A stretch of 64,000 bases of DNA from Corallococcus sp. NCRR (GTDB taxonomy: Bacteria; Myxococcota; Myxococcia; Myxococcales; Myxococcaceae), in assembly GCF_026965535.1 (NCBI RefSeq), contig NZ_CP114039.1, forward strand, positions 6,820,001-6,884,000, read 5' to 3'. The notes beneath the pieces were generated by a model. It was not told where the DNA came from. It searched no databases and saw nothing but the letters and a program-made list of their open reading frames with translations. Both the position numbers and the translations under genes were made by a program. Positions 34,808-64,000 of this stretch are shown one piece after another. Each line of letters opens with the position of its first letter. Within the stretch, counting starts at the first letter, position 1.

Positions 34808-35559
34808 CGGCGACTTCTCCCTGGCTCGCGTGCCGCATCCGGCGCCCGGAAGCCTCCGTGCGCCTCTTCTGCTTCCCGCACAGCGGCGGCTCCGTGGGTG
34901 AGTACGTCCGATGGGCGGACCTGCTCCCGGACATCGAGGTCTGGGGCGTGCAGCTTCCGGGGCGAGGGGCTCGGGCGGAAGAAGCCCCGTTCACCCAACT
35001 GGACGCACTGGTGGATGCGCTGGTGCAAGCGGTGGACTTCGGATCCTCCTTCGCGTTCTTCGGTCACAGCCTGGGCGCGGTCGTGGCCTTCGAAACGACC
35101 CGCCGCCTGCGCGACCTGGGCCGGGTGCCGCCCACCGCGCTGTTCCTCTCCGCGGCTCCGGCCCCACAGCTCCCGCCACGAGGCATCCCCTCGAGCCACC
35201 TGGACGAGGACGGACTCCTCACCGCCCTGGAGCCCACCTACGGCGAGCTGATCCACGAACTGCGCGAGGACGAAGAGCTGCGCGAGCTCATTCTCCCCGG
35301 CCTGCGAGCGGACCTACGGCTCGTGGAGTCCCACCGGCACCAGGAGCGAGCCCTCCTCGCCTGCGTGATGACCGTCACGGGCGGCATCCAGGACGACCTG
35401 ACCCGCGCCGAGTTGGAGCCGTGGAGCCTCCACACCTCCGGGCCCTTCGCGCTCCAGTTGCTGCCCGGTGGGCACTTCTACCTTCGCGACCCAGAACCGA
35501 AGTCCACCCTCCTGCGCCTCATCGCGGAGACCCTCTCCAGAAGGACGCCAACCCCATGA
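34804..35559 (+). CDS. Type II thioesterase
   Basis: A 251-residue alpha/beta-hydrolase with FCFPHSGGS near the N-terminus (residues ~22-30), the nucleophile elbow FFGHSLGAV (Ser about 88-90) and the late catalytic His in GGHFYL (about 226). External TEII enzymes clear misprimed or stalled carriers in NRPS/PKS systems. It overlaps the PKS stop and the next gene's start, so all four genes are translationally coupled. Because no integrated TE or reductase is encoded in the operon, this enzyme may also be considered for product release, though TEII proteins usually do not do that. Confidence 0.93.
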   Translation: MTATSPWLACRIRRPEASVRLFCFPHSGGSVGEYVRWADLLPDIEVWGVQLPGRGARAEEAPFTQLDALVDALVQAVDFGSSFAFFGHSLGAVVAFETTRRLRDLGRVPPTALFLSAAPAPQLPPRGIPSSHLDEDGLLTALEPTYGELIHELREDEELRELILPGLRADLRLVESHRHQERALLACVMTVTGGIQDDLTRAELEPWSLHTSGPFALQLLPGGHFYLRDPEPKSTLLRLIAETLSRRTPTP

Positions 35560-41002: not shown

Positions 41003-43096
41003 ATGAAGCGATTGGTCGTCATCGCCGCCCTCGTGGGTGCCGCCCCGGCGCTCGCCGATGAAGGCATGTGGACGTTCAACAACTTCCCCGCCGCCAAGGT
41101 GAAGGAGAAGTACGGCTTCCAGCCGGATCAGCAGTGGATGGACAAGCTGCGCCTGGGCGCGGTGCGTCTGGCCGGCGGCTGCTCGGCGAGCTTCGTGTCG
41201 CCGGACGGCCTGGTGATGACCAATCACCACTGCGCGCGCGGCTGCATCGAGCAGCTGTCCACCGCGAAGCAGGACTACCTGGCCAACGGCTTCTACGCCA
41301 AGACGCAGGGCGAGGAGAAGCAGTGCCCGGCGATGGAGGTGAACCAGCTCGTCGAGATCACCGACATCACCGAGCAGCTCAACAAGGCCACCGCGTCGCT
41401 GACCGGCAAGCAGTACTCGGACACGCTGAAGGCGGAGATGTCCAAGGCGGAGAAGGCCTGTTCCAACGGCGACGACAAGGTGCGCTGTGACGTCGTCACG
41501 CTGTACCAGGGCGGCAAGTACAACCTGTACAAGTACCGCCGCTTCCAGGACGTGCGCCTGGTGTTCGCCCCGGAGCACGCCATCGCCTTCTTCGGCGGTG
41601 ACCCGGACAACTTCGAGTTCCCCCGCTACGACCTGGACGTGTCCTTCGTGCGCGTCTACCAGGACAAGCAGCCGGTGAAGACGCCGGACTACTTCAAGTG
41701 GTCCGAGGGCGGCGCGAAGGAGAACGACCTCACGTTCGTGGCCGGCAACCCGGGCCGCACCTCGCGCGCGCTGACCATCGCGGAGCTGGAGTACACCCGC
41801 GACGTGGCCCTGCCCAAGACGCTCATGTACCTCTCCGAGCTGCGCGGCGTGCTCACCGAGTTCCAGAAGCGTGGCCCCGAGCAGAAGCGCATCTCCAGCA
41901 ACCTGCTGTTCGGCGTGGAGAACGGCCTGAAGGCGTCCAAGGGCCGCCACGAGGCGCTGCTCGACAAGAAGTTCTTCGCCTCCAAGGTCGCCGCGGAGCA
42001 GGAGCTGCGCAAGAAGGTCGACGCGAACCCCGAGCTGAAGAAGAAGTACGCCGCCGCCTGGGATGAGATCGCCAAGGCGGAGGCCCAGTTGCTCACCATC
42101 CGCAAGGACCTGAACTTCATCGAGCAGGGCCAGGGCCTGTCCGCCAGCCTGTTCCACACCGCCCGGGCGCTGGTGCGCGCTGGCGACGAGCTGCCCAAGG
42201 ACAACGGCCAGCGGCTGCGCGAGTTCAACGACGCCAACCTGCCCGCCCTCAAGGCGCAGCTCTTCAGCCCCGCGCCCATCTACGCGGACCTGGAGATCGC
42301 CCGCCTGACGTTCGGCCTCACCAAGATGCGTGAGGAGCTGGGCGCCAAGCACCCGTTCGTGAAGAAGGTGCTGGGCAAGGAGTCCCCGGAGCAGGTCGCC
42401 ACCCGCGTGGTGAAGGGCACGAAGCTCTTCGACCCGAAGGCGCGCCAGGCGCTCTGGAACGGCGGCAAGAAGGCCGTGGACGCGTCCAAGGACCCCATGG
42501 TCCAGCTGGCCGTCCTGACGGACGCGGACGCCCGCGCCATCCGCAAGAAGTTCGAGGACGACGTCGAGTCCATCATCAAGAAGAACAGCGAGCTGGTCGC
42601 CAAGGCGAAGTTCGACATCTACGGCACCAGCCAGTACCCGGACGCGACCTTCTCCCCGCGCGTGTCCTTCGGTTCCGTGAAGGGCTACATGGACGAGGGC
42701 CAGCAGGTCGCCCCCATCACCCAGATGTCCGGCACCTTCGAGCACGCCACGGGCCAGGAGCCGTATGCGCTGCCCAAGTCGTGGCTGAAGTCGGAGAAGA
42801 TCGTCACCGGCACCACGCCGATGAACTTCGTCACCACCAACGACATCATCGGCGGCAACTCCGGTTCGCCCGTGGTGAACAAGAACCACGAGATCGTCGG
42901 CCTGGTGTTCGACGGCAACATCCAGTCGCTGGGCGGCGAGTACGGCTTCGACGAGTCGGTGAACCGCACGGTGGCCGTGCACTCGGAGGCCATCATCGAG
43001 GCGCTCAAGAAGATCTACGGCGCCAACCGCGTCCTGGAAGAGCTGCGCCCCGGCAGCACCAAGGTCGCGCCGGTGAAGGCGAACCCGGCGGGGTAG
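41003..43096 (+). CDS. S46-family dipeptidyl-peptidase (DPP7-like)
   Basis: A 697-residue serine exopeptidase secreted to the periplasm or outside. Signal peptide MKRLVVIAALVGAAPALA. Catalytic His in TNHHCARG (H75/H76), Asp in GGDPDNFEFPR (about 193-203), and Ser in GGNSGSPV (about 617-624). The residue after the third strand reads FDGN; Gly there, rather than Arg, is the DPP7 pattern that accepts hydrophobic P1 residues over the acidic-specific DPP11. Full length for the family. It removes dipeptides from N-termini, matching the predatory, proteolytic life of myxobacteria. Confidence 0.95.
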   Translation: MKRLVVIAALVGAAPALADEGMWTFNNFPAAKVKEKYGFQPDQQWMDKLRLGAVRLAGGCSASFVSPDGLVMTNHHCARGCIEQLSTAKQDYLANGFYAKTQGEEKQCPAMEVNQLVEITDITEQLNKATASLTGKQYSDTLKAEMSKAEKACSNGDDKVRCDVVTLYQGGKYNLYKYRRFQDVRLVFAPEHAIAFFGGDPDNFEFPRYDLDVSFVRVYQDKQPVKTPDYFKWSEGGAKENDLTFVAGNPGRTSRALTIAELEYTRDVALPKTLMYLSELRGVLTEFQKRGPEQKRISSNLLFGVENGLKASKGRHEALLDKKFFASKVAAEQELRKKVDANPELKKKYAAAWDEIAKAEAQLLTIRKDLNFIEQGQGLSASLFHTARALVRAGDELPKDNGQRLREFNDANLPALKAQLFSPAPIYADLEIARLTFGLTKMREELGAKHPFVKKVLGKESPEQVATRVVKGTKLFDPKARQALWNGGKKAVDASKDPMVQLAVLTDADARAIRKKFEDDVESIIKKNSELVAKAKFDIYGTSQYPDATFSPRVSFGSVKGYMDEGQQVAPITQMSGTFEHATGQEPYALPKSWLKSEKIVTGTTPMNFVTTNDIIGGNSGSPVVNKNHEIVGLVFDGNIQSLGGEYGFDESVNRTVAVHSEAIIEALKKIYGANRVLEELRPGSTKVAPVKANPAG

Positions 43097-47296: not shown

Positions 47297-51157
<3,861 letters not shown>

Positions 51158-51222: not shown

Positions 51223-51242
51223 GTGTCGAAATTTTTCGACAC
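51223..51242. promoter_or_regulatory. 20-bp perfect inverted repeat, likely operator
   Basis: GTGTCGAAATTTTTCGACAC: arms of nine bases (51223-51231 and 51234-51242) around TT, ending 16 bases before the GTG start of the giant synthetase. The AT-rich centre inside GC-rich surroundings and the position overlapping the expected leader are typical of an operator for a dimeric regulator (TetR- or LexA-like). The regulator is not in the window as far as I can tell. Confidence 0.65.
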
Positions 51243-51258
51243 CTGGACGGCCCCCCCC

Positions 51259-54200
51259 GTGACCGACCTCGCCCCCCGAAGCCTTTCTGGCTTGTTGCTG
51301 ACCCTTGCCCAAGGGTCGTCCGCCTACGCGCCGCTCTACACATTCCTCGGAGATGACGGCGAGGAGACCGTCTGGCGCGCGTTCGACCTGGACGTGCGTG
51401 CGCGGCGCATTGCTTCAGCGTTGCGTGAGCGGGGCGCGCACGGCGAGCGCGTGCTGCTGCTGTACCCGCCGGGGCTGGACTACATCGCGGGCTTCTTCGG
51501 CTGCCTGTACGCGGGAGCGGTGGCGGTGCCCGCGTATCCGCCGGACCCGATGCGCCTGGAGCGCACCCTGCCCCGCCTGCGCGCCATCATCCAGGACGCG
51601 CGCGCGTCGGTGGTGCTCACCACGTCGGGCATCCTCGGGCTGTCGGACTTCGTCTTCGAGCAGGCGCCGGACTTCCGTGCGCTGCACTGGATGGCGACGG
51701 ACGCGTTGCCGGAGGGCGGCGAGGGGGACTGGGTGGCACCGGAGGGACTGGGCGCGGAGTCGCTCGCGTTCCTTCAGTACACGTCTGGGAGTACGGGCAC
51801 GCCGAAGGGGGTGATGCTCACGCACGGCAACCTGCTGCACAACCTGTCGCTCATCCACGGTGCGTTCGGCGCGCGTGCGGACAGCGTGGGCGTCATCTGG
51901 CTGCCGCCGTACCACGACATGGGGCTCATCGGCGGCATCCTGGAGCCGCTGTACGGGGGCTTCCCGGTGGCGTTGATGTCGCCCATGTCCTTCCTCAAGC
52001 GGCCCATGGCGTGGCTGGAGGCGGTGTCGCGCTTCGGGGGCACCATCAGCGGCGGGCCCAACTTCGCGTTCGACTTGTGCGTGCGAAAGAGCACGCCGGA
52101 AGAGCGGCGGGCGTTGGACTTGAGCCGGTGGGAGGTGGCCTTCTGCGGCGCGGAGCCGATTCGCCCGGAGACGCTGGAGCGTTTCGTGGAGGCGTTCGGC
52201 CCCAGTGGCTTCCGGCGTGAGGCCTTCTACCCGTGCTACGGCCTGGCGGAAGGCACGCTCATCGTCTCCGGAGGCGAGAAGTCGACGCCGCCGGTGTCGG
52301 TGACGATTTCGGGCGAGGCGATGGAGCGGCACCGCGCGGAGGAAGTGGTCGCGGCGGAGCCTGGGGCGCGCACGCTGGTGGGGTGCGGCCGGACGCTGGA
52401 GGCGCAGCGAATCGCCATCGTGGATCCGGAGACGCTGGAGCGGCGTGGGCCTGGGGAGGTGGGCGAAATCTGGGTGTCGGGGCCGAGCGTGGCCCAGGGG
52501 TATTGGGGCCGAGAGGAAGCGACGCGCGAGACATTCCATGCGCGCATCGCCCATGAGGACGGCGGGCCGTACCTGCGCACCGGGGACCTGGGCTTCCTGC
52601 GCCCGGAGGGCGAGCTGTACGTCACGGGACGGCGCAAGGACCTCATCATCCTGCGAGGGAGAAACCACTACCCGCAGGACCTGGAGGCGACGGTGGAGGG
52701 AGCGCACCCGGCGCTGAGGCCCGGGGGCGGCGCCGTCTTCGCGGTGGAGGTGGGGGGCGAGGAGCGCGCGGTTGTCGTGCAGGAAATCGACGTGCGGCGG
52801 CTGGGCGGACTGCGTGAGCAGTTGGCGGCGGCGGACGCGGCGGTGGGCACCCTCCGTCAGCGGCTGGCGGAGTCGCACGAGGTACAGGCGCACGCGGTGG
52901 TGCTGATTGAGCCGGGCAGTCTGCCGAAGACGTCCAGCGGCAAGGTGCAGCGGCATGCGTGCCGCGCGGCCTTCCTCGCGGGGACGTTGCAGGAGGTGAC
53001 GGCGTGGCGGGCGGTGCCGCCAGGCGGCACGGCTCGGGCTCCCCTCCCCGCTTCATCCGCGGCGCCAGGCTTCGGTGCATCTGGACTGGGGGCTTCGACT
53101 GAGGCCCGCGCTGCATCCATTCCGGGCGACGGCAGGCCCAGGTCCGACACAGCAGCGAGCATCAGCGCGTCTGTGCTGGTGGCTTCGACTGAAGCCGCTG
53201 ATTCGGGAGCCGCCGCTTCCGGTTCTGGAGCCGCTGCTTCAGCCGTCCTGGGCTCTGGCGCGACTGGGGCCACCAGGCCTTTGGCCTCGTCTGGTCCGTC
53301 GGCGGGTCATGAGGGCCGAGCCGTCAGCTCTACTTCTCCTGGCGCTGGTTCGGAAGTGCGCGAAGCGGTGCCCGGCTCCGTGGGCCTGCCCGCGAATCCG
53401 GACGAGGCAGCGCTGGTCGCGTGGCTGCGCGACGTCGTGGCCCGGCACGTGCGGATGCTTCGTGAGGACATCGACGTCGATGCTCCGGTGACTCGCTACG
53501 GGCTGGACTCGCTGGGCGCGGTGGATCTGGCGCACGAAGTGGGCACGGGCACCGGGCTGACGGTGCCCATGGAGTGGTTGCTCCAGGGACCGAGCATCAC
53601 GTCCCTGGCGCACAGGCTGGCCTCGCTCCGAGACGCGGCGGGCCCCGCGCCCCGCCGCAGGGACGTGGGAAGCGACCGTGAGGCGTCGTCCTCGCAGGCC
53701 CGGTTGTTCTTCCTGTCCCGGTACGCCCCGGGTGACGTGTCCTACAACCTGCCCGCCGCCGTGCGCCTGGAGGGCGACCTGGATGTGGCCGCGCTGGAGG
53801 GGAGCCTCGTGGCTCTCGCGGCCCGGCATGAGGGACTGCGGACCTCCTTCCGTGAGGCTCCGGGACAGCCCCGGCAGGTCATCTCCGAGGATGCGTCCCT
53901 GCCGCTGACGCGCGTGTCACTGGAGTCCCTGCCCGCCAACGCCCGCGAGGCCGAGGCGCTCCGCATGGCCCACGAAGAGGCCCGCCGCCCGTTCGACCTG
54001 GAGCGCGGACCGCTGGTGCGCGCCACGCTGCTCACGCTGGATGCGCGGACCCATGTGCTGGTGCTCGTCATGCACCACGCCGTGTCGGACGCGACGTCCA
54101 TGGCCGTGCTGGTGCGCGAGGTCTCCGCCCTCTACTCGGCGCTGCGCGAGGGCCGTCCGTCACCCCTGCCCGCCCTGCCCCTGGACTACGCCGACGCCGC

Positions 54201-57200
54201 CGACTGGCAGCGCGACTCGCTGGACGGCGCCGCGCTGGAGTCGCGGCTGGACTACTGGCGGACGCAGCTCGCCGGTGCTCCCCAGCTGCTGGAGCTGGCC
54301 ACGGATCGGCCGCGTCCCTCGCGGCGTGGATCTTCGGGTGCTCGCGTCCCGGTGGTGCTGGAGGCGGGACTCGCGGACTCGGTCCGGAGGCTGGCGGAGC
54401 GCGAAGGCGTCACGCCGTTCATGGTCCTGCTCGCGGCCTTCCAGACCGTGCTCGCCCGCCGCTCGGGCCAGGACGACATCAGCGTGGGCACGGCCATCGC
54501 GGGCCGCCAGCGCGCGGAGTTCCAGGGGCTCGTCGGCCTCTTCGTCAACTCGCTGGTCCTGCGCACGCGACTGTCCGGTGCCCCTTCGTTCCGGGAGCTC
54601 CTGGGCCGCGTGCGGGACACGGCGCTGGGGGCGTACGCGCACCAGGACGTGCCCTTCGAGCGCGTGGTGGAGGCCCTCAAGCCCCCTCGCGAGCTGGGGC
54701 ACACGCCGCTGTTCCAGGTGATGTTCAACCTCCAGGGTGCCCGTGTGGATGCGCCCGTCCTGCAAGGGCTCCAGTCCCGGCTCCTGGACGTGCACACCGG
54801 CACGTCCATGTTCGACCTCACGCTGTCGCTCGCGGAGTCCCCCCACGGCTTCGAGGGCTGGCTGGAGTACTCCACGGAGTTGTTCGACGCGGACACCGTG
54901 GAGCGGCTGGCCGGCCACCTCCGCGTGCTGCTGGAGGCCGCCATCGCGGCCCCTGGGACGTCCATCCACGAGCTGCCCTGGATGACGGACGCGGAGCGCC
55001 ACCAGGTGCTCACCGCGTGGAACGACACGGCCCTCGACTACCCCTCTGGCGGGACCATCCCCGAGCAGTTCGCGCTCCAGGCAGCGCGGACTCCGGCCGC
55101 CGTCGCCGTGGAGGACGGGGACCTTCGCCTGACGTACGCGCAGCTTGAGGCGCGGGCCAATCCGCTCGCGCACTTCCTCCGTGCTCGGGGCGTGGGCCCG
55201 GACGTGCCGGTGGCGGTGTGCATGGAGCGCTCCGTGGACTTCGTCGTCACGGTGCTCGCCATCCTCAAGGCGGGCGGCGCCTATGTCCCGCTGGACGCGT
55301 CTTACCCCGCGCGGCGGCTGGCGCTCATGATGGAGGACGCCCGGCCCCGGATGCTGCTCACCACGCGCGCGCTGCGTGAGCGGCTGCATGTGCCCGACGC
55401 GTCCCTGGCCTGCGTCTTCGTGGACGCGCTGGCGCTCGACGACCAGCCCGTCGCCGCGCCGGAGGTCACCGTCGGGCCTCGCAACCTGGCCTACGTCATC
55501 TTCACCTCCGGCAGCTCCGGGCGCCCCAAGGGAGTGGCCAACGAACATCGCGGCGTGCTGCGCCTCGTGCACGCCGAGCCCTACTCGCGCGTCGGTCAGC
55601 GCGAGACGGGCATGCTCTTCGCGCCGCTGTCCTTCGATGGCTCCGTGATGGAGCTGTGGACGATGCTGCTGCACGGCGGCCGGCTGGTCATCTTCCCTGG
55701 CAACGTCCCCGCCGGAGACATGGACACGCTCGCGCGCGTGGTGGAGCGCCACGCGGTCGGCTTCGCCCACCTGCCGTCGGGGCTCTTCTCGCAGTTGGTG
55801 GAGCACCGGCCGGACCTCCTCGTGCGGCTGCGCGAAGTGCACGTGGCGGGCGACGTCATCTCCGCCCCGCATGTGCGCCGCGCGGTGGAACTCCGAGGCC
55901 GGTCCGTCATCAACGCCTATGGCCCCAGTGAATGCTCCGTGGCCGCGTCGTTCTTCACGGTGGAGCGGCCGGAGCAGGCGGGCGCGTCGGTGCCCATCGG
56001 CGCGCCGCTCGCGAACACCACGGCGTACGTGCTGGACGCGCGGCTCCAGCCGGTGCCGGTGGGCGTGCCGGGGGAGTTGTTCCTCGGCGGTGATGGCGTG
56101 GTCCGGGGCTACGTGTCGCGGCCGGACCTGACGGCGGAGCGCTTCGTGCCGGATGCCTGGGGCACGAAGCCGGGGGCGCGGCTGTACCGCACGGGCGACC
56201 GGGTGCGCTGGCGCGCGGATGGGACGCTGGACTTCCTGGGCCGCACGGACCACCAGGTGAAGGTACGCGGCTTCCGCATCGAGCTTCCGGAAGTGGAAGC
56301 CGCCCTGCGCGAGCTGCCCGAAGTGCACGAGGCCACGGCGGTGGTGCGCGAGGACGTGCCCGGCGACAAGCGGCTCGTCGCCTATGCGATGCCTCGCCCG
56401 GGTCAGGTGCTGGAGCCCACGCGGCTGCGCGAGGCCCTGCGCCGCAAGCTCCCCGACTACATGGTGCCGTCACTCTTCGTGGCGCTCCCCACCCTGCCCC
56501 TGAACCCCAGCGGCAAGGTGGACCGCAAGGCCCTGCCCGCTCCGGACTCGGAGGCCACCGGCCGGAGCGAGCGCTACGTGGCACCGTCCCATCCGCTGGA
56601 GGAGCAGATCGCCGCCGCGTGGGCCCGTGAGCTGGGGGCCGACCGCGTGGGCACGCAGGACCACCTGTTCAACGATTTGGGTGGAACGTCGCTGTCCGTG
56701 ATGAGGCTCGCCTCGCGCCTGAAGGAGGCGCTGGGCCGCGACGTGCCCGTGGTCTGGTTGTTCGAACATCCCACGGTGGAGTCGCTCGCCCAGCGGTTGG
56801 AGCATGAGTCGCGGTCCCCCGGTTCACCCGCGCCGTCGCCCACCGCACCGGGCCACCGACCGCGCGAGGCGTCGAAGCCGGGCGCGTCCGGCTCCATCGC
56901 CATCGTCGGCATGGCGGGCCGCTTTCCCGGCGCGGGGACGGTGGAGGCGTTCTGGCGCAACCTGCGCGAGGGCGTGGAGTCCATCACGCGCTTCTCCCCC
57001 GAGGAGCTGGAGCACCTGCCCTCCCTGCCCGAGGGGTTCGAGCTCTGGTACCACCCGGCGTTCGTTCCGGCCGCGGGTGTCCTGGACGACGTGGAGGGGT
57101 TCGACCACGCGTTCTTCGACATGTCACTGCGCGAGGCGCAGTTCACGGATCCGCAGCAGCGGCTGTTCCTCCAGACGGCGTGGGCCGCGCTGGAGGACGC

Positions 57201-60200
57201 GGGCGTCAATCCGGAGCGCTACCCCGGCGCCATCTCGCTGTACGCGGGGGCCGCGGCCTCCGGATACGCGGAGGCCGTGCGGCAGTCGATGCCGCTGGAC
57301 GCGGCGTCCTTCTTCGAGCTGAACGGCACCGCCACGCACGAGAGCCTGCCGACGAAGGCGTCCTTCAAGCTGGGGCTCACGGGTGAGAGCACGCTGCTCT
57401 ACACCGCGTGCTCCACGGGCCTGGTGGCGGTGCACCTGGCCTGTCAGAGCTTGCGGACGGGCCAGTCCGATGTGGCGCTCGCGGGGGCCTCGCGGCTGTC
57501 GCTGCCGCAGCGCACGGGCTACGTGGCGCAGGAGGGGCTCATCTTCTCCCCGGACGGCCACTGCCGTGCGTTCGACGCCAGGGCCCAGGGGACGCTGCCC
57601 GGGAACGGCGTGGGCGCGGTGGTGCTCAAGCGCCTGGAGGACGCGGTGCGGGATGGGGACTCCATCTACGCCGTCATCCGGGGCTCGGCGCTGAACAACG
57701 ACGGCCGGAACAAGTCCGGCTTCACCGCGCCCAGCGTGCAGGGACAGGCGGCGGTCGTGTCGCAGGCGCTGGCCAACGCGGGCGTGTCACCGGAGGCCGT
57801 GGGCTACGTGGAGGCCCATGGCACCGCGACGCCGCTGGGCGACCCGATTGAAGTGGCGGCGCTGACGCGTGCGTACGGCCTGGGGGCGGAGCACCGGGGG
57901 CGCATCGCGCTGGCGTCGCTGAAGACGAACGTGGGGCACCTGGACACGGCCGCGGGGCTGGCGGGCCTGATGAAGGCCGCGCTGGCGCTGCACCATGGGG
58001 AGATTCCCCCCAGCCTCCACTTCGAGAAGCCCAACCCGCAAATCGACTTCGACGCGGGGCCGTTCTTCGTCAACACCACCTTGCGGTCGTGGCCTCGGAG
58101 CGAGACGCCTCGCTTCGCCGCGGTCAGCTCCTTCGGCATTGGTGGCACCAATGCCCACGCCATCCTCGAGGAAGCCCCCATGCGGCAGAGTGGTTCCACC
58201 ACGCGTTCCCACCAGCTCGTCGTGCTGTCCGCGCGCTCGCCGGAGGCACTGGAGGCGGCGGCGCGGCGGTTGGAGGCGAAGGGCGTCGGGGACTCGGCGC
58301 TGGCGGATCTGGCGTTCACGCACGCCGTGGGCCGCAAGGCGTTCGAGTACCGCCGCGCGGTGGTGGTAAAGGACACGGAGGACCTGTCGCGGCAGCTCCA
58401 GAAGCCGGTGACGCTGGCGAAGAGCCCGGGCAAGGCGCCGCGCGTGGCGTTCGTGTTCTCCGGCCAGGGGTCGCAGCGGCTGGCCATGGGGCGCGAGCTG
58501 GCGGAGGCCTCGCCCCTGTTCCGCGCGCACCTGGATGCGTGCCTTGCGCTGCTGGACGCGCCGCTGCGGGCCCAGGTGTCGGCCGTGCTGGCGCCCGAGG
58601 CCGATGCTTCGGCGGACCTCGCGGACACGCGGGTCGCATTGCCCGCGCTGTTCAGCGTGCAGGTGGCGCTGGCGCGGATGTGGCAGGACCTGGGCGTCAC
58701 GCCGTCCACGGTGATGGGACACAGCTTCGGTGAGTACGCGGCGGCGTGTGTCGCGGGGGCGCTGTCCCTGGAGGACGCGATGCGCCTCGCGGTGGTTCGC
58801 GGGGAGCTGATGCACCGGATGCCGCCGGGCGCGATGCTCGCGGTGGCCCTGCCCGTGGAGCGCGTCCAGTCGTTGGTGTCGGGCCGGCTGTCGGTAGCGG
58901 CGGTGAACGCTCCGGACCGTTGCGTGGTGTCGGGTCCGGTCGAGGAAGTGGAGCGGCTGGAGGCCGAGCTGAAGGGCCTGAAGGCCGGAGCGGTGCGCAT
59001 GCCCGCGCCGCACGCGTTCCATTCCGCGGACGTGGAGCCGTTGATGCCGGAGCTGGCGCGCGTGGTGGGCACGCTGCGCTGGTCGGAGCCGGCGGTGCGT
59101 TACGTGTCCAGCCTCACGGGGGCGGTGGTGCAGCCCGGGCAACTGGCGGCGCCGGACTACTGGACGGAGCAGATGCGTCAGCCGGTGCGCTTCACCCGCG
59201 CGGTGGAGGCACTCCAGGCGGATGGCTGCACGGTGCTGCTGGAGGTGGGCCCGGGACAGGACGTGACGCCGCTGGTGCGCGCGAACGTCGCCAGGCCCGA
59301 GGGCGGCGGTGCCTCCGTCGTCGCGCTGGCGTCGCTGCGGGTGGGTGGGAAGACGACGGAGCAGATGGGCTGGCTCCAGGCCGTGGGCGAGCTGTGGGTC
59401 GCGGGTGTGTCCGTGGATTGGAGCGCGTTCTACGCGCATGAGCAGCGACTGAGGCTGCACCTGCCCACGTACGCGTTCCAGACCAAGCCGGTCTGGGTGC
59501 AGCCGAGGGCACGCGCCACGACGTCGCCGTTCGCACCGCCCTCGGCAGGCACCGTCCGGCCGCCGCATGTTCCGGCCGCGTCCGCTGATCATGCGCCCGA
59601 ACCGTTGGCGCCTGCCGCGTCCACCGGGCGTGTGCTCGAAGTGACTTCCGACCTGGCCCTGGTCACCGCGTCAGTCCGTGCTCCTCAAGCCTCCTCTGCG
59701 ATGACGGCCACGGCGTCGGTCCGCGCCCCTCAAACCGCGTCCGCGATGTCGGCTTCGACCAGTGCTCCCCAGAGCGCGTCCTCAACGGTGACGGCTCCGA
59801 ACGGCGTTTCACAAAGCGAATCGGCGATGACGGCCACGGCGTCGGTCCTCGCCCCCCAGGTTGCGTCCGCGATGTCGGCTCCGGCCAGTGCGGCTCAATC
59901 CACCTCGGCGATGGCGGATCCAATCGACTCCTCCCAGGGCGCATCGGCAACGACGGAGCCAGCCGGTGGCTCACACGGGGTCCCGGTGCACGGGCTGCGT
60001 CCGGAGGCGGAGGAGGCCGCGCACGGGGCTGCCGTTCCCATGGTCGTGGAACCCGCGCCCGCTGCCCCTCCTCCCGGCCGCGCTGACGCGCCTCGGGGCG
60101 ACATCGAGGAGCGCGTGGCGGCGCTGTGGCGCGACCGTCTGGGCCTGGAGTTCGTGGGCCGCCATGACGACTTCCTGGAGCTTGGCGGCAACTCGCTGAC

Positions 60201-63200
60201 GGCCGCGCAGCTGCTCAATCAGCTCCGTGAGGCCTTTGGCGTGAACCTGCCCCTGGCCGCCCTCTTCGAAGCGCCCACGGTCGCTGGCATCGCCGAACGC
60301 CTGGAACCCCTGCTGCTCCAGGCGCCCCAGGCGCCGGTCTCCACGGAGCTTCCGCTGGTGCCGCTGCCTCGTGACGGCAGTGAGCTGCCGCTGTCCTTCG
60401 TGCAGGAGCGCGTCTGGCGCCTGGAGCAGCACCTGCCTGGCCTGTCCGCGTACAACCTCCCGTTCGTCCTCCGGCTCGAAGGGGACCTGGACGCGGACGT
60501 GATGGAGCGCGGCATCCAGGAGATCGTCCAGCGCCACGAGTCCCTCCGCACCACCTACGACACCGTGGACGGCCGCCCCGTGCAGCGCTTCCACGCGCGC
60601 ATGCGCGTGCCCCTCACCCGCGTGGAGCTGCGCGGCCCGATGGAGACGCGTGAGCCCGAGGCGCTGCGCCTCGCCCGCGAGGACGCCGCGAAGCCTTACG
60701 ACCTGGTCCACGGTCCCGTGCTGCGCACCACGCTGGTCCGCCTGGACACGAAGCTGCACCTGCTGATCGCCAGCATCCACCACATCGTCGGCGACACGAT
60801 GTCCATCGCCCTCTTCGTCCAGGAGCTGGGCCAGCTCTACGACGCCTTCCTCCAGGGCAAGCCGTCTCCGCTCAAGCCGCTGCCCCTCCAGTACGCGGAC
60901 TTCGGCGCGTGGCAGCGCCGGGGCATCACGAGCGGCCGTCTGGCCGAACAGGACCAGGGCTGGCGGCAGCGGCTGGCCGGCATGCCGCGCAAGCTGGACC
61001 TGCCCACCGACCGGCCCCGCTCCAACGAGCCCCGCATCTCCTCCCACCGCATGACGCTGGACTTCCCGCCAGCGCTCGCCCACGAGCTGGTGGCCTTCAC
61101 GCGCCGCGAGGGCTTCACCGGCTACATGACGGTGCTCGCCGCGTGGCAGACGCTGCTGCACCGCTACTCCGGCCAGACGGACGTCGTCGTCGGAACGCCC
61201 ATCGCCAACCGCACCCGTCCGGAGCTGATGCCGCTCATCGGCTACGTGGCGCACTCGGAGGCGTTCCGGACGCGCTTCACCGAAGGGCTCACGTTCCGCG
61301 AGCTGCTGGCCCAGGTGCGAGGCGAGGTCGCGGACGCGCAGACGCGCCCGGACGTCCCCTTCGAGTACCTGGTGGAGGCGCTCATCCCGGGCCATGACAT
61401 CGGCCGGGGGCGCATGACGGACTCCGTATTCGTCTACCACACGGGCGCGAGCTCCTCGGAGACGCTGGAGCTTATCGGCCTGCGCGCCACGTTGGTGGAG
61501 GTGCCAGGCACGCCCGTGCAGTGGGGCTCCACCCTGAGCGCGCTCACCCTGGTCCTCTTCGAGTCCCCCACCCGCGTCCACGGCGCGCTGGAGTACGCGT
61601 CCGACCTGTTCGACGCCGCCACCACGGCGCGGCTCATGGAGCACTTCCAGGTCCTGCTCGCCGCGGCGCTCGCGAACCCCGACACGCAGGTGGCGCACCT
61701 GCCGCTCGCCACCGAGGACGAGCGCCGCGCCTGGCCCACGCCTCGCGCCACGCCGGGGCTGGTCCCCGTGCCCACGCTGCTCGCGGAGCGGCGCGCACGC
61801 CACGCGGATGCCACCGCCCTGTCCCAGGGGGAGACGCACTGGACCTGGGCGGAGCTGGGCGCCCGCGCGGACGCCCTGTCCGCGAAGTTGAAGGCCCTGG
61901 GCGTGAAGGCTGGAACACCGGTGGCCGTGTGCCTGCGCACGTCGCCGGAGAAGCTGGCCGCGCTGTGGGGCGTGCTGGGCGCTGGCGGCGCGTGCGTCGC
62001 ACTGGGCCCGTCCGACCTGAGCCACCTGCCCGTGTACGCGCCCGAAGGTGCTCCGGTGCCGGTGCTCGTCACCACGCGCGCGCTGGTGGCCTCCGTGCGC
62101 GTGGATGCAGCGCGCGTCGTCTACGTGGAGGACGTGCCAGCCGCGACCGAAGCCACCGCCGTGGACGTGGAGCCGCAGGCCCTCGCGTGGCTGCTGCCCA
62201 CGGGCCGGGGCCAGCCCGCGTGGGCCCTGGGCCACCGGGAGCTGGCGGAGTTCTTCACCGGTCTGGACACGCGCCTGTCGCCCCCGGACGGCGGCGCGTG
62301 GCTGGCCGCGAGCGAGCCGTCCTCCGACCGTCCGGATCTGGAGGCCCTGTGGGCGCTCACGCGCGGCCTGCGGGTGGTGTTCCCGCCGGAGCGCATCACC
62401 GCCCGGCTGGTGAGCCTGGGCGATGGCGGCCCCCGCGCGAAGGCGATGGACCTGAGCCTCATCTACTTCGCCAACGACGAGGACACGCTCACCGGGCCCA
62501 AGTACGAGCTGCTGCTGGAGGGCGCGAAGTTCGCGGACGCGAACGGCTTCTCCGCGGTGTGGACCCCGGAGCGGCACTTCCATTCGTTCGGCGGTCTGTA
62601 CCCGCAGCCCGCCGTGGTGGCGGCGGGCCTGGCCACCGTCACGAAGCACCTGCGCTTGCGCTCCGGCAGCGTGGTGTTGCCGCTGCATGATCCGCTGCTC
62701 ATCGCGGAGCAGTGGTCCGTGGTGGACAACCTGTCCCAGGGCCGCGTGGGCCTGTCCGTGGCCACGGGCTGGCACACGCAGGACTTCACCTTCGCGCCCG
62801 CCAACTACGAGAAGCGCCGCGACATCCTGCTGGAGAAGCTGTCCACGCTGCGCGCCCTGTGGCGCGGCGAGCGCTTCAAGCGCCCCGCCGGTGCCGGCAG
62901 CACGGCGGAGGTCGGTCTGCGCCCGAAGCCGGTGCAGAAGGAGCTGCCGGTGTGGCTCACCGCCACGGGCAACCCCGAGACGTTCCGCATGGCGGGCGAG
63001 CTGGGCGCGGGCGTGCTCACGGGCCTGCTGTCGCACTCGCTGGAGGAGCTGAAGCAGAAGGTGGCGCTGTATCGCGACGCGTGGCGCCGCAACGGGCACC
63101 CGGGCCGCGGCCACATCACCTGCATGCTGCACACGTACCTGGGCGACGACGAGCAGGAGGTGCTGCGCACGGTGCGCCAGCCGCTGCTCGGCTACTTCCG

Positions 63201-64000
63201 AAGCTCCGTGGACATCAGCACGTCGCTGCTCCAGGCGCAGGGCATCACCGACGTCCAGAAGCTGTCGCCGGACGACATCAACGCGGTGCTGGAGCGCACG
63301 TTCGAGAACCACGCGAAGAACACCGGCCTGCTGGGCACGGTGGACAGCGCGATGCGGCGGCTGCGTGACGTGCGCGCGGCGGACGTGGACGAGGTGGCGG
63401 CGCTCATCGACTTCGGCCTGGACACGCCGGTGGTACTGGACGGCCTGCGCCGGCTGGCCGTGGTGCGCGAGCGCATGGACGCGGAGGCCGCCGCCCGCCA
63501 GGAGCAGGTGCTGGTGGAGGCGGAGGCGGGCGTCGAAGGCCTGCTGGAGCTGGCGCGTCAGTCCGGCGCGGTGCTGCTGCACACGTCGGCCCGGCTGGCG
63601 CGTTCGCTGAGCGAACTGCCCGGAGCGCGTGAGTCCCTGTCCCGCGTGGGCGCGCTGGTGTTGGAGGGCGCGTCGGTGGAGCTGGGCGCGGCGCTGCACC
63701 GGGCCGCGGGCGTGGAGGTGTGGCTGTCCGGTGATGCCCAGGAGGGCGCGCTGCTGCCGCGCACGTTGGCGGAGCGCATCCCCGCGAACCTCCAGGCCTG
63801 GGTGCTGGACGCGGCCGGTCAGCCCGTGCCCGCGGGTGTGGTGGGCGAGCTGGCCCTCGCGGGCGCGGGGCTCCCCACAGCGCTGTGGCGCGCGGGTGAT
63901 GAAGAGCACCGGCGTCTGGTGCCGCACCCTCGCGAGGCTTCCGCGAAGCTGTTCCGCACCGGCCGCCACGCCCGCATGCGCGGGGATGGCCGGCTGGAGC
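51259..64000 (+). CDS. Giant hybrid NRPS-PKS, FAAL-ACP-C-A-T-KS-AT-T-C-A(degenerate)-monooxygenase, partial at window end
   Basis: An open frame of 4247 codons with no stop by 64,000. FAAL (1-580, YTSGSTGTPKG) activates a fatty acid. ACP (715-790, Ser751). C1 (about 815-1250, HHAVSDA at 939). A (1262-1770; my code reading D-G-M-H-H-A-A-V-A, no prediction). T (Ser1811). KS (1878-2305; Cys2051, His2187, His2227). AT (2395-2690; Ser2489, malonyl-type HAFH at 2585). T (Ser2979). C2 (3033-3490, HHIVGDT at 3174). The final module is a degenerate A domain holding a luciferase-like monooxygenase (about 3731-4050). GTG start with weak site. Makes a lipopeptide-polyketide. Confidence 0.95.
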   Translation, partial: MTDLAPRSLSGLLLTLAQGSSAYAPLYTFLGDDGEETVWRAFDLDVRARRIASALRERGAHGERVLLLYPPGLDYIAGFFGCLYAGAVAVPAYPPDPMRLERTLPRLRAIIQDARASVVLTTSGILGLSDFVFEQAPDFRALHWMATDALPEGGEGDWVAPEGLGAESLAFLQYTSGSTGTPKGVMLTHGNLLHNLSLIHGAFGARADSVGVIWLPPYHDMGLIGGILEPLYGGFPVALMSPMSFLKRPMAWLEAVSRFGGTISGGPNFAFDLCVRKSTPEERRALDLSRWEVAFCGAEPIRPETLERFVEAFGPSGFRREAFYPCYGLAEGTLIVSGGEKSTPPVSVTISGEAMERHRAEEVVAAEPGARTLVGCGRTLEAQRIAIVDPETLERRGPGEVGEIWVSGPSVAQGYWGREEATRETFHARIAHEDGGPYLRTGDLGFLRPEGELYVTGRRKDLIILRGRNHYPQDLEATVEGAHPALRPGGGAVFAVEVGGEERAVVVQEIDVRRLGGLREQLAAADAAVGTLRQRLAESHEVQAHAVVLIEPGSLPKTSSGKVQRHACRAAFLAGTLQEVTAWRAVPPGGTARAPLPASSAAPGFGASGLGASTEARAASIPGDGRPRSDTAASISASVLVASTEAADSGAAASGSGAAASAVLGSGATGATRPLASSGPSAGHEGRAVSSTSPGAGSEVREAVPGSVGLPANPDEAALVAWLRDVVARHVRMLREDIDVDAPVTRYGLDSLGAVDLAHEVGTGTGLTVPMEWLLQGPSITSLAHRLASLRDAAGPAPRRRDVGSDREASSSQARLFFLSRYAPGDVSYNLPAAVRLEGDLDVAALEGSLVALAARHEGLRTSFREAPGQPRQVISEDASLPLTRVSLESLPANAREAEALRMAHEEARRPFDLERGPLVRATLLTLDARTHVLVLVMHHAVSDATSMAVLVREVSALYSALREGRPSPLPALPLDYADAADWQRDSLDGAALESRLDYWRTQLAGAPQLLELATDRPRPSRRGSSGARVPVVLEAGLADSVRRLAEREGVTPFMVLLAAFQTVLARRSGQDDISVGTAIAGRQRAEFQGLVGLFVNSLVLRTRLSGAPSFRELLGRVRDTALGAYAHQDVPFERVVEALKPPRELGHTPLFQVMFNLQGARVDAPVLQGLQSRLLDVHTGTSMFDLTLSLAESPHGFEGWLEYSTELFDADTVERLAGHLRVLLEAAIAAPGTSIHELPWMTDAERHQVLTAWNDTALDYPSGGTIPEQFALQAARTPAAVAVEDGDLRLTYAQLEARANPLAHFLRARGVGPDVPVAVCMERSVDFVVTVLAILKAGGAYVPLDASYPARRLALMMEDARPRMLLTTRALRERLHVPDASLACVFVDALALDDQPVAAPEVTVGPRNLAYVIFTSGSSGRPKGVANEHRGVLRLVHAEPYSRVGQRETGMLFAPLSFDGSVMELWTMLLHGGRLVIFPGNVPAGDMDTLARVVERHAVGFAHLPSGLFSQLVEHRPDLLVRLREVHVAGDVISAPHVRRAVELRGRSVINAYGPSECSVAASFFTVERPEQAGASVPIGAPLANTTAYVLDARLQPVPVGVPGELFLGGDGVVRGYVSRPDLTAERFVPDAWGTKPGARLYRTGDRVRWRADGTLDFLGRTDHQVKVRGFRIELPEVEAALRELPEVHEATAVVREDVPGDKRLVAYAMPRPGQVLEPTRLREALRRKLPDYMVPSLFVALPTLPLNPSGKVDRKALPAPDSEATGRSERYVAPSHPLEEQIAAAWARELGADRVGTQDHLFNDLGGTSLSVMRLASRLKEALGRDVPVVWLFEHPTVESLAQRLEHESRSPGSPAPSPTAPGHRPREASKPGASGSIAIVGMAGRFPGAGTVEAFWRNLREGVESITRFSPEELEHLPSLPEGFELWYHPAFVPAAGVLDDVEGFDHAFFDMSLREAQFTDPQQRLFLQTAWAALEDAGVNPERYPGAISLYAGAAASGYAEAVRQSMPLDAASFFELNGTATHESLPTKASFKLGLTGESTLLYTACSTGLVAVHLACQSLRTGQSDVALAGASRLSLPQRTGYVAQEGLIFSPDGHCRAFDARAQGTLPGNGVGAVVLKRLEDAVRDGDSIYAVIRGSALNNDGRNKSGFTAPSVQGQAAVVSQALANAGVSPEAVGYVEAHGTATPLGDPIEVAALTRAYGLGAEHRGRIALASLKTNVGHLDTAAGLAGLMKAALALHHGEIPPSLHFEKPNPQIDFDAGPFFVNTTLRSWPRSETPRFAAVSSFGIGGTNAHAILEEAPMRQSGSTTRSHQLVVLSARSPEALEAAARRLEAKGVGDSALADLAFTHAVGRKAFEYRRAVVVKDTEDLSRQLQKPVTLAKSPGKAPRVAFVFSGQGSQRLAMGRELAEASPLFRAHLDACLALLDAPLRAQVSAVLAPEADASADLADTRVALPALFSVQVALARMWQDLGVTPSTVMGHSFGEYAAACVAGALSLEDAMRLAVVRGELMHRMPPGAMLAVALPVERVQSLVSGRLSVAAVNAPDRCVVSGPVEEVERLEAELKGLKAGAVRMPAPHAFHSADVEPLMPELARVVGTLRWSEPAVRYVSSLTGAVVQPGQLAAPDYWTEQMRQPVRFTRAVEALQADGCTVLLEVGPGQDVTPLVRANVARPEGGGASVVALASLRVGGKTTEQMGWLQAVGELWVAGVSVDWSAFYAHEQRLRLHLPTYAFQTKPVWVQPRARATTSPFAPPSAGTVRPPHVPAASADHAPEPLAPAASTGRVLEVTSDLALVTASVRAPQASSAMTATASVRAPQTASAMSASTSAPQSASSTVTAPNGVSQSESAMTATASVLAPQVASAMSAPASAAQSTSAMADPIDSSQGASATTEPAGGSHGVPVHGLRPEAEEAAHGAAVPMVVEPAPAAPPPGRADAPRGDIEERVAALWRDRLGLEFVGRHDDFLELGGNSLTAAQLLNQLREAFGVNLPLAALFEAPTVAGIAERLEPLLLQAPQAPVSTELPLVPLPRDGSELPLSFVQERVWRLEQHLPGLSAYNLPFVLRLEGDLDADVMERGIQEIVQRHESLRTTYDTVDGRPVQRFHARMRVPLTRVELRGPMETREPEALRLAREDAAKPYDLVHGPVLRTTLVRLDTKLHLLIASIHHIVGDTMSIALFVQELGQLYDAFLQGKPSPLKPLPLQYADFGAWQRRGITSGRLAEQDQGWRQRLAGMPRKLDLPTDRPRSNEPRISSHRMTLDFPPALAHELVAFTRREGFTGYMTVLAAWQTLLHRYSGQTDVVVGTPIANRTRPELMPLIGYVAHSEAFRTRFTEGLTFRELLAQVRGEVADAQTRPDVPFEYLVEALIPGHDIGRGRMTDSVFVYHTGASSSETLELIGLRATLVEVPGTPVQWGSTLSALTLVLFESPTRVHGALEYASDLFDAATTARLMEHFQVLLAAALANPDTQVAHLPLATEDERRAWPTPRATPGLVPVPTLLAERRARHADATALSQGETHWTWAELGARADALSAKLKALGVKAGTPVAVCLRTSPEKLAALWGVLGAGGACVALGPSDLSHLPVYAPEGAPVPVLVTTRALVASVRVDAARVVYVEDVPAATEATAVDVEPQALAWLLPTGRGQPAWALGHRELAEFFTGLDTRLSPPDGGAWLAASEPSSDRPDLEALWALTRGLRVVFPPERITARLVSLGDGGPRAKAMDLSLIYFANDEDTLTGPKYELLLEGAKFADANGFSAVWTPERHFHSFGGLYPQPAVVAAGLATVTKHLRLRSGSVVLPLHDPLLIAEQWSVVDNLSQGRVGLSVATGWHTQDFTFAPANYEKRRDILLEKLSTLRALWRGERFKRPAGAGSTAEVGLRPKPVQKELPVWLTATGNPETFRMAGELGAGVLTGLLSHSLEELKQKVALYRDAWRRNGHPGRGHITCMLHTYLGDDEQEVLRTVRQPLLGYFRSSVDISTSLLQAQGITDVQKLSPDDINAVLERTFENHAKNTGLLGTVDSAMRRLRDVRAADVDEVAALIDFGLDTPVVLDGLRRLAVVRERMDAEAAARQEQVLVEAEAGVEGLLELARQSGAVLLHTSARLARSLSELPGARESLSRVGALVLEGASVELGAALHRAAGVEVWLSGDAQEGALLPRTLAERIPANLQAWVLDAAGQPVPAGVVGELALAGAGLPTALWRAGDEEHRRLVPHPREASAKLFRTGRHARMRGDGRLE
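53030..53370 (+). other. Ala/Ser/Gly-rich interdomain linker between FAAL and ACP
   Basis: About 115 residues (roughly 590-705 of the giant synthetase) of Ala, Ser, Gly, Pro and Thr with few large residues. It is a flexible, disordered tether connecting the fatty-acid-activating domain to its carrier. Similar linkers are found in other myxobacterial assembly lines. It carries no catalytic motif. Confidence 0.8.
59700..59950 (+). repeat. Imperfect tandem repeat in the AT-T linker (126-bp period)
   Basis: Two ~42-residue units starting at 59701 and 59827 share MTATASV.AP and ASAMSA..SA blocks. The DNA is the same over long stretches (ATGACGGCCACGGCGTCGGT in both). They encode an Ala/Ser/Thr-rich linker between the AT and T domains (about residues 2815-2900). 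The repeat probably varies in copy number between strains without affecting chemistry. Confidence 0.7.
62450..63410 (+). other. Embedded luciferase-like monooxygenase domain
   Basis: Residues about 3731-4050 of the giant synthetase fit the flavin-dependent luciferase-like monooxygenase family known from natural-product assembly lines (LLM type): start LSLIYFANDEDTL, then VWTPERHFHSFGGLYPQPAV, LRSGSVVLPLHDPLLIAEQW, and GLSVATGWHTQDF. It sits inside an A-domain shell whose ATP-binding core motif is degraded (LLPTGRGQPAWAL in place of YTSGSTGxPKG), while the RTGR motif survives near the window end. Such domains oxygenate a carrier-bound intermediate, for example by alpha- or N-hydroxylation. The exact site is unknown. 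Confidence 0.85.

Follow-up and report, generated by a model that had tools for sequence, protein, structure and literature searches.

A luciferase-like monooxygenase within an inactive, carrier-less adenylation shell behind a polyketide module of myxobacterial synthetases

An oxygenase embedded in an adenylation (A) domain of a peptide synthetase is generally assumed to work on the amino acid loaded by that domain. A hybrid NRPS-PKS of Corallococcus sp. NCRR, the first part of which lies at the end of the 64,000-nucleotide stretch analysed here (the window, positions 6820001-6884000 of contig G000:C1, the source genome of 9.79 Mb in one contig), raises the question of what such an enzyme acts on when its A domain loads nothing. 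A preliminary description of the window had placed a flavin monooxygenase inside an A-domain shell with a decayed ATP-binding motif, in what it took for the last module of the line. The features are listed below in window numbering, or in contig numbering where G000:C1 is given; the evidence stands in brackets, and A* denotes an inactive A core.

51223 to 64000, plus strand: hybrid NRPS-PKS with a GTG start, 10,387 aa in all, of which the first 4259 aa lie in the window; the frame ends at about G000:C1:6902384
51364 to 52986, plus strand: fatty-acyl-AMP ligase (FAAL) loading domain (own HMM; PF00501, PF23024)
53458 to 53616, plus strand: carrier domain following the FAAL (own domain models)
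53692 to 54999, plus strand: C domain of the first amino-acid module (Pfam, own domain models)
55078 to 56517, plus strand: A domain of the first amino-acid module, complete with its C-terminal subdomain (Pfam, own models)
56617 to 56796, plus strand: PCP of the first amino-acid module (own domain models)
56893 to 58026, plus strand: ketosynthase (KS), active site TACS (Pfam, own models, motif)
58450 to 59289, plus strand: acyltransferase (AT), motifs GHSFG and HAFH, by which we take it to be of the malonyl type (Pfam, own models, motif)
60121 to 60300, plus strand: PCP of the PKS module, where the oxygenase substrate is proposed to sit (Pfam, own models)
60397 to 61725, plus strand: C1, a specialised condensation domain by its sequence (Pfam, own models, fixed positions, structure match)
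60778 to 60798, plus strand: C1 signature HHIVGDT, that is HHxxxDT replacing HHxxxDG (motif)
61795 to 62418, plus strand: A*, N-terminal part (own A model, alignment, motif scan)
62191 to 62229, plus strand: decayed A3 (P-loop) stretch LLPTGRGQPAWAL (alignment, position check)
62410 to 63432, plus strand: luciferase-like monooxygenase (LLM), TIGR04020 (NCBIfam; closest solved relative the PuwE OX domain, 6KET)
63433 to 64000, plus strand: A shell, C-terminal part, without A5 and with RTGR in place of RTGD at A7; it ends about at the window end (alignment)
about 6884156 to 6885460 of G000:C1, plus strand: C2 condensation domain, beginning PLPLSFAQQRLWYLQQ (own models)

The monooxygenase is of the MupA/Atu3671 type, matching TIGR04020 with 485.7 bits (E 7e-146) against a curated cut-off of 244.45 bits, a score that rules out a chance match or mis-annotation; its nearest relatives in the LLM scan are from Corallococcus, at 97-98%, and it matches the PuwE OX domain with an E-value of 1.7e-104. 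It is flanked on both sides by A-domain sequence (positions 3-217 of our own A model before it and 305-386 after it), and upstream of it the P-loop stretch has decayed, as first described. The NCBIfam model AA-adenyl-dom reaches only 77.9 bits on the shell against a cut-off of 317.4, as expected for a broken A domain, and motifs A3, A5, A7 and A8 of a functional A domain are absent from the core. When the reading was carried past base 64,000, the shell was found to stop after A7, with LFRTGRHARMRGDGRLE at the window end, and to be followed by a Pro/Ala-rich linker of about 45 aa and then by C2. Neither the C-terminal subdomain of A domains (PF13193) nor a carrier domain was found between the LLM and C2, which departs from a canonical C-A-PCP module, and no competent A domain was found past base 64,000 in the same module. 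The suggestion that aminoacyl activation is lost is thus borne out, and the feature properly starts further upstream, at about 60397, where C1 carries a signature of its own. The module is not the last, however: the frame is open at the window end and continues for about 6,100 aa, with five amino-acid modules (that of C2 included) downstream of the oxygenase cassette and a thioesterase at its end.

The same order, A-PCP-KS-AT-PCP-C1-A*-LLM-A*-C2-A-PCP, occurs in three synthetases of the source genome, the other two being:

6902583 to 6940067 of G000:C1: cassette synthetase 2, the neighbour, split by a frame change
6369605 to 6401687 of G000:C1, minus strand: cassette synthetase 3

The neighbour lies directly downstream in two frames (6902583-6911610 and 6911531-6940067); its first domain scores as a FAAL, and the split falls within a C domain, where either the gene is broken or its sequence contains an error. 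Our FAAL model also matches A domains, so that a "FAAL" match after an LLM denotes an A domain.

To place these cassettes among their relatives, 80 loci taken from 119 places matched by the LLM scan were combined with the loci of the source genome and of genomes G123 and G054, giving 88 LLM places, which were sorted by what follows the LLM: 58 without a carrier (class I), 20 with a PCP after the LLM (class II), and 10 unplaced, at contig ends or with the LLM not seen within an A domain. The absence or presence of a carrier is thus definitional, but what stands upstream is independent of the definition. A full KS-AT-PCP directly precedes C1 in 52 of the 58 class I places (three others are cut by contig ends but consistent, and three offer no view) and in none of the 20 class II places within the same frame, so that the class I cassette reads KS-AT-PCP-C1-[A*-LLM-A*]-C2-A-PCP. 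These counts are not independent events, because the class I loci form one clade and some are nearly identical: the G054 locus and L081 are one record, L080 is at least 99% alike to it and to one G123 locus in the LLM, and the second G123 locus stands in the same relation to L091. All class I places are myxobacterial except two contigs labelled Comamonas sp. KCTC 72670; one of these (L086) groups among myxobacterial rows in the LLM tree, from which the other (L100) was left out by a 93% filter, and both probably come from a mislabelled or mixed assembly. In four phylum-wide samples (146, 292, 398 and 296 genomes), with L043 sorted by the A shell around its LLM, class I made up 3 of 30 binnable loci in Myxococcota and none of those in the other phyla sampled (23 in Cyanobacteria, 19 in Pseudomonadota, one of them unclear, and 6 in Actinomycetota), in bins of short loci that hold the best-scoring matches only and so under-represent class I in Myxococcota.

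Class II, the Atu3671-type arrangement C-A-LLM-A-PCP, has the same TIGR04020 LLM inserted at the same place of the A core, but differs from class I around it. The shells of class I lack A3, A5, A7 and A8 in all 57 cases, the window copy included, whereas these motifs occur in 18, 18, 18 and 14 of the 18 class II shells tested; as a reference, among 194 ordinary A domains the same patterns find 186, 170, 189 and 181. The A10 pattern was set aside because it matched only 10 of the 194 ordinary A domains; among the LLM shells its matches numbered 2 of 57 in class I and 12 of 18 in class II. All 20 class II places have, by definition, a PCP after the LLM, and none has a KS in the same frame; four of their frames begin with a loading domain and PCP, seven with a C domain, and nine have no C match by our own model. 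The statement that a similar shell is retained in known LLM-containing lines is therefore not supported by the class II shells tested, and decay is no universal rule of LLM shells. One relative beyond the 57 shells (G112) retains more A core after its LLM (model positions 211-386); the subdomain, the carrier and a recognisable A3 and A5 are all missing from it. Myxobacterial proteins of the form loading domain-PCP-C-A-LLM-A-PCP with intact A domains were also seen (L103, L104, L106 and G123:C1:4307259-4324457), the last just before a class I gene, so that two LLM types are adjacent in that genome.

The PKS module upstream is uniform: KS carries TACS and AT carries GHS[FY]G and HAFH in 52 of 52 copies each, and these acyltransferases, too, are presumably malonyl-type. 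The AT-PCP linker measures 114-297 aa (n=52; 278 aa in the window copy), which is short by comparison with a complete ketoreductase of about 400 aa, and ketoreductase, DH, ER and aminotransferase families had no Pfam match at E 0.001 in residues 1-4000 of the window synthetase; for aminotransferases this extends to residues 1-6259. The A-domain codes on either side are varied. Stachelhaus-like codes, extracted by crude regular expressions that returned none from 23 of 58 places before KS and 6 of 58 after C2, support "varied" only: 22 different strings among 35 readable before KS, many of them alike (beginning DGMG, DGLG or DAL), and varied strings after C2, where the Ser-like DVWM[VM]SLVD accounts for 18 of 52 readable.

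The condensation domain in front of the shell carries a signature of its own. C1 reads HHxxxDT in 60 of 60 copies (55 class I and five contig-end loci with KS-AT-PCP upstream), a variant seen in 0 of 57 C2 domains, 0 of 7 class-II-type C domains (six, plus L110, which has HHxxxDG) and 3 of 208 other C domains. The three exceptions, in L052, L058 and the second synthetase of the source genome, read HHLVVDT. Four more positions are fixed in all 60 copies, two in the GFFVN stretch (F to V and N to H; the window copy reads GYVAH) and two further along (P to R and Q to D); they differ in C2 and in most other C domains. C2 itself keeps an intact HHxxxD[AG] in 57 of 57. Judged by these residues, C1 is a specialised rather than a decayed neighbour domain, and it may still condense, because both histidines and the aspartate are retained.

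A structure model of window positions 60385-63984 has a mean pLDDT of 77 and a pTM of 0.52, the latter leaving the relative placement of domains uncertain. Over the LLM it matches the PuwE OX domain 6KET with Z 41.6 and an rmsd of 2.5 over 339 residues, and C-A didomains such as Txo2 align over 760 residues (model residues 1-1185, Z 40.0, rmsd 7.1). As this alignment spans more than the C domain alone, the predicted overall form is likely a C-A platform carrying the LLM as an insert. The structural neighbours of C1 include the X-domain of teicoplanin (4TX2, Z 38.1) as well as a true C domain (7KVW, Z 37.7). The X-domain of glycopeptide synthetases, likewise a C-like domain near an oxygenase, recruits P450s in trans; C1, in contrast, keeps HHxxxD and has its oxygenase in cis.

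The shell is under purifying selection. In comparisons of the window copy with eight partners, by simple counting on GC-rich codons that leaves distant pairs unsure, dN/dS ranged over 0.06-0.53 for the LLM, 0.06-0.43 for the C-side shell, 0.22-0.65 for the N-side shell, 0.21-0.59 for C1 and 0.26-0.73 for C2. The lowest value of the five regions belonged to the LLM in four of the eight pairs and to the C-side shell in the remaining four; the LLM values lay at 0.06-0.27 against L047, L048, L049, L052 and the neighbouring paralogue, rose to 0.53 against L064, and stayed below 1 in all ten pairs tried. Many residues of the LLM and C1 are invariant in an alignment of 43 rows. The selection on the shell and the alignment of the predicted model to C-A didomains fit the scaffold role proposed for it earlier. 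In a quick tree of 111 LLMs (32 class I rows after dereplication), class I forms one side of one branch (SH-aLRT 100), and its neighbours are myxobacterial class II proteins, a placement with weak support (83-84). The simplest history would be that a class II module was moved behind a PKS module and then lost A function, subdomain and carrier.

Both A-embedded and PKS-linked LLMs are already known, and the cassette shares features with each. Among the former are the monooxygenases (MOx) of the myxothiazol and melithiazol lines, which we take to be those named MtaG and MelG. They are described, like the LLM of the window, as inserted in an NRPS A domain and oxidising the carbon beside the thioester, that of myxothiazol hydroxylating C-alpha (PMC11342130); their A domain, however, is a glycine-recruiting one with a T domain and TE behind it (PMC11342130), whereas the window has a dead A, no carrier and a PKS module before it. 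Among the latter, the OX domain of PuwE in the puwainaphycin line is placed between PKS and NRPS modules and has been proposed to give, together with an aminotransferase, a 3-amino-2-hydroxy unit (PMC4219810). Class I resembles it in that the oxygenase stands between KS-AT-PCP and the next amino-acid module in 52 of 52 viewable copies, but adds C1 and A* between; the account of PuwE describes an adjacent aminotransferase and no A shell, while the window synthetase has no aminotransferase match. The layout described for PuwE recurs in the cyanobacterial genomes G175 and G181, where LLM relatives without an A shell are found after a PKS carrier and before the next C domain, alongside unassigned sequence of about 650 and 570 aa. 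In G181, one cluster holds three TIGR04020 LLMs, each in a context of its own, over about 24 kb (G181:C92:115000-152000, L238-L239). Chain shortening by LLM/MOX domains has been proposed for mandelalide and calyculin, with the MOX of MndA treated in PMC5698493, and the keramamides and calyxamides are described as having an unusual C1 (one-carbon) extension, the domains in the calyxamide scheme including an Ox (PMC12858407); it is in this description that the Entotheonella lines making these compounds resemble the window synthetase. Taken together, the published LLM/MOX proposals would place the reaction at the carbon adjoining the thioester or have the chain cleaved next to it.

The cassette is also found in Myxococcus, in M. 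xanthus AM003 (L080, a contig fragment) and, among its relatives with synthetases of 14-15 thousand aa, in Myxococcus sp. CA023 (L081, 14,284 aa). From size and species, we infer that these are orthologues of MXAN_3779. They have more modules before the KS than the window synthetase, and the start-unit call is blurred by the cross-matches of our FAAL model to A domains. The product of the myxoprincomide line reportedly contains 2-oxo-beta-leucine. The gene mxan_3779 is given as that of myxoprincomide (PMC11619377), the cluster as MXAN_3763-3797 (table in PMC4902038), and its conservation is described for Myxococcus and Pyxidicoccus (PMC12224551).

The reaction had been called not predictable from known examples; the constant KS-AT-PCP upstream, the AT-PCP linker, short for a complete ketoreductase, and the proposals for related oxygenases allow a more definite view. 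We consider it probable that the LLM is docked by C1 together with the inert A core, that it oxidises the alpha-carbon of a beta-ketoacyl chain on the upstream PKS carrier, and that C2 hands the chain on. In the window, KS-AT-PCP would build a gamma-amino-beta-ketoacyl thioester from a fatty acyl chain, an amino acid and a malonate unit, a reductive domain being absent. The C1-A* pair, with no carrier of its own and activating no amino acid, would serve as a docking platform presenting the LLM to the PKS carrier; with reduced flavin and oxygen the LLM would oxidise the alpha-carbon, and C2 would condense the oxidised chain with the next aminoacyl-PCP. The likeliest outcome may be an over-oxidation in which one carbon is lost and an alpha-ketoamide formed, a net one-carbon extension of the amino acid, the alternative being simple alpha-hydroxylation. 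We would favour the alpha-ketoamide because of the C1 extension in keramamides and calyxamides and the cassette in the M. xanthus relatives, presumably the myxoprincomide line; its chances against simple alpha-oxidation are nevertheless roughly even, and a single oxidation alone cannot remove a carbon, which counts against it.

A hydroxylation or ketonisation of the alpha-carbon, leaving an alpha-hydroxy- or alpha,beta-diketo amide link and all carbons in place, is accordingly an option of considerable weight, though we would not put it ahead. The OX of PuwE, proposed to help yield a 3-amino-2-hydroxy unit (PMC4219810), and the LLM of the palmerolide line, put forward in the published proposal as an alpha-hydroxylase, speak for such a course; both lines, however, have other neighbouring domains, and neither an aminotransferase nor a ketoreductase was found here. 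The analogy to PuwE is partial for the same reason, the aminotransferase of PuwE-type lines being absent. The part played by C1 can also be seen differently: it might catalyse an unusual amide formation by attack on the oxidised intermediate, leaving to C2 an ordinary condensation, or the reverse. The HH and D, kept in 60 of 60 copies in which G to T, F to V and N to H are fixed as well, would agree with a catalyst, but the teicoplanin X-domain is as close to the predicted fold of C1 as true C domains are. As X-domains recruit oxygenases, this likeness favours docking, and we regard catalysis by C1 as rather unlikely.

Two further explanations would take the oxygenase away from the polyketide unit. 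The LLM could have as its substrate an aminoacyl or peptidyl chain on the downstream C2-A-PCP carrier and hydroxylate it at the alpha-carbon, much as the A-embedded MOx of myxothiazol and melithiazol acts on C-alpha in a glycine-recruiting A domain (PMC11342130), and the downstream module does adjoin the cassette directly. Yet the invariable upstream KS-AT-PCP (52 of 52 viewable copies, against 0 of 20 class II frames), the varied, if crudely extracted, codes of the A domain after C2 and the want of a carrier in the cassette itself make this quite improbable. Still less probable is that the module is a skipped relic with an idle LLM, C2 taking the chain straight from the PKS carrier; the loss of A core and carrier and the intact C2 motif (57 of 57) would allow it, but an LLM that scores 485.7 bits, has dN/dS below 1 in ten of ten pairs and, like C1, has many residues invariant across 43 rows hardly looks idle. 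The sequences themselves establish the architecture, the lost A motifs, subdomain and carrier, the constant PKS neighbour, the C1 signature and the purifying selection; docking by C1 and A*, the substrate on the PKS carrier, the reaction and the product are what we infer.

The dead A core, the missing carrier, the specialised C1 and the fixed PKS neighbour make class I a distinct variant. No description of a carrier-less cassette was found in the open-access literature searched, and one may already be published elsewhere. As the A domain of the window loads nothing and has no carrier, any prediction that takes it for an amino-acid module would add a residue that is not there and overlook a probable oxidation of the polyketide link. 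The type is recognisable by sequence as an HHxxxDT C domain, an LLM, a truncated A and a direct C. More speculatively, and on balance rather doubtfully, C1 (HHxxxDT/GYVAH) might represent a distinct functional class of C domain and C1-A*-LLM a portable homologation unit, acting in trans, that converts any aminoacyl-malonyl beta-ketothioester into an alpha-keto amide with oxidative loss of one carbon; if so, its products would be warheads of the protease-inhibitor kind, and the C1 signature would suffice to find it in genomes. The class I cassette is also carried by M. xanthus, which is genetically well tractable.

Other genes of the window were noted as well. Just upstream of the synthetase, positions 47342-51157 hold a frame of 1271 aa with an HSP70 domain at residues 706-1199, and an S46-family peptidase (756 bits) is encoded at 41003-43096, near the peptide synthetases. 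A separate small line occupies three adjacent frames at 26820-35559, with A-PCP-C-A-PCP, KS-AT-PCP and a thioesterase.
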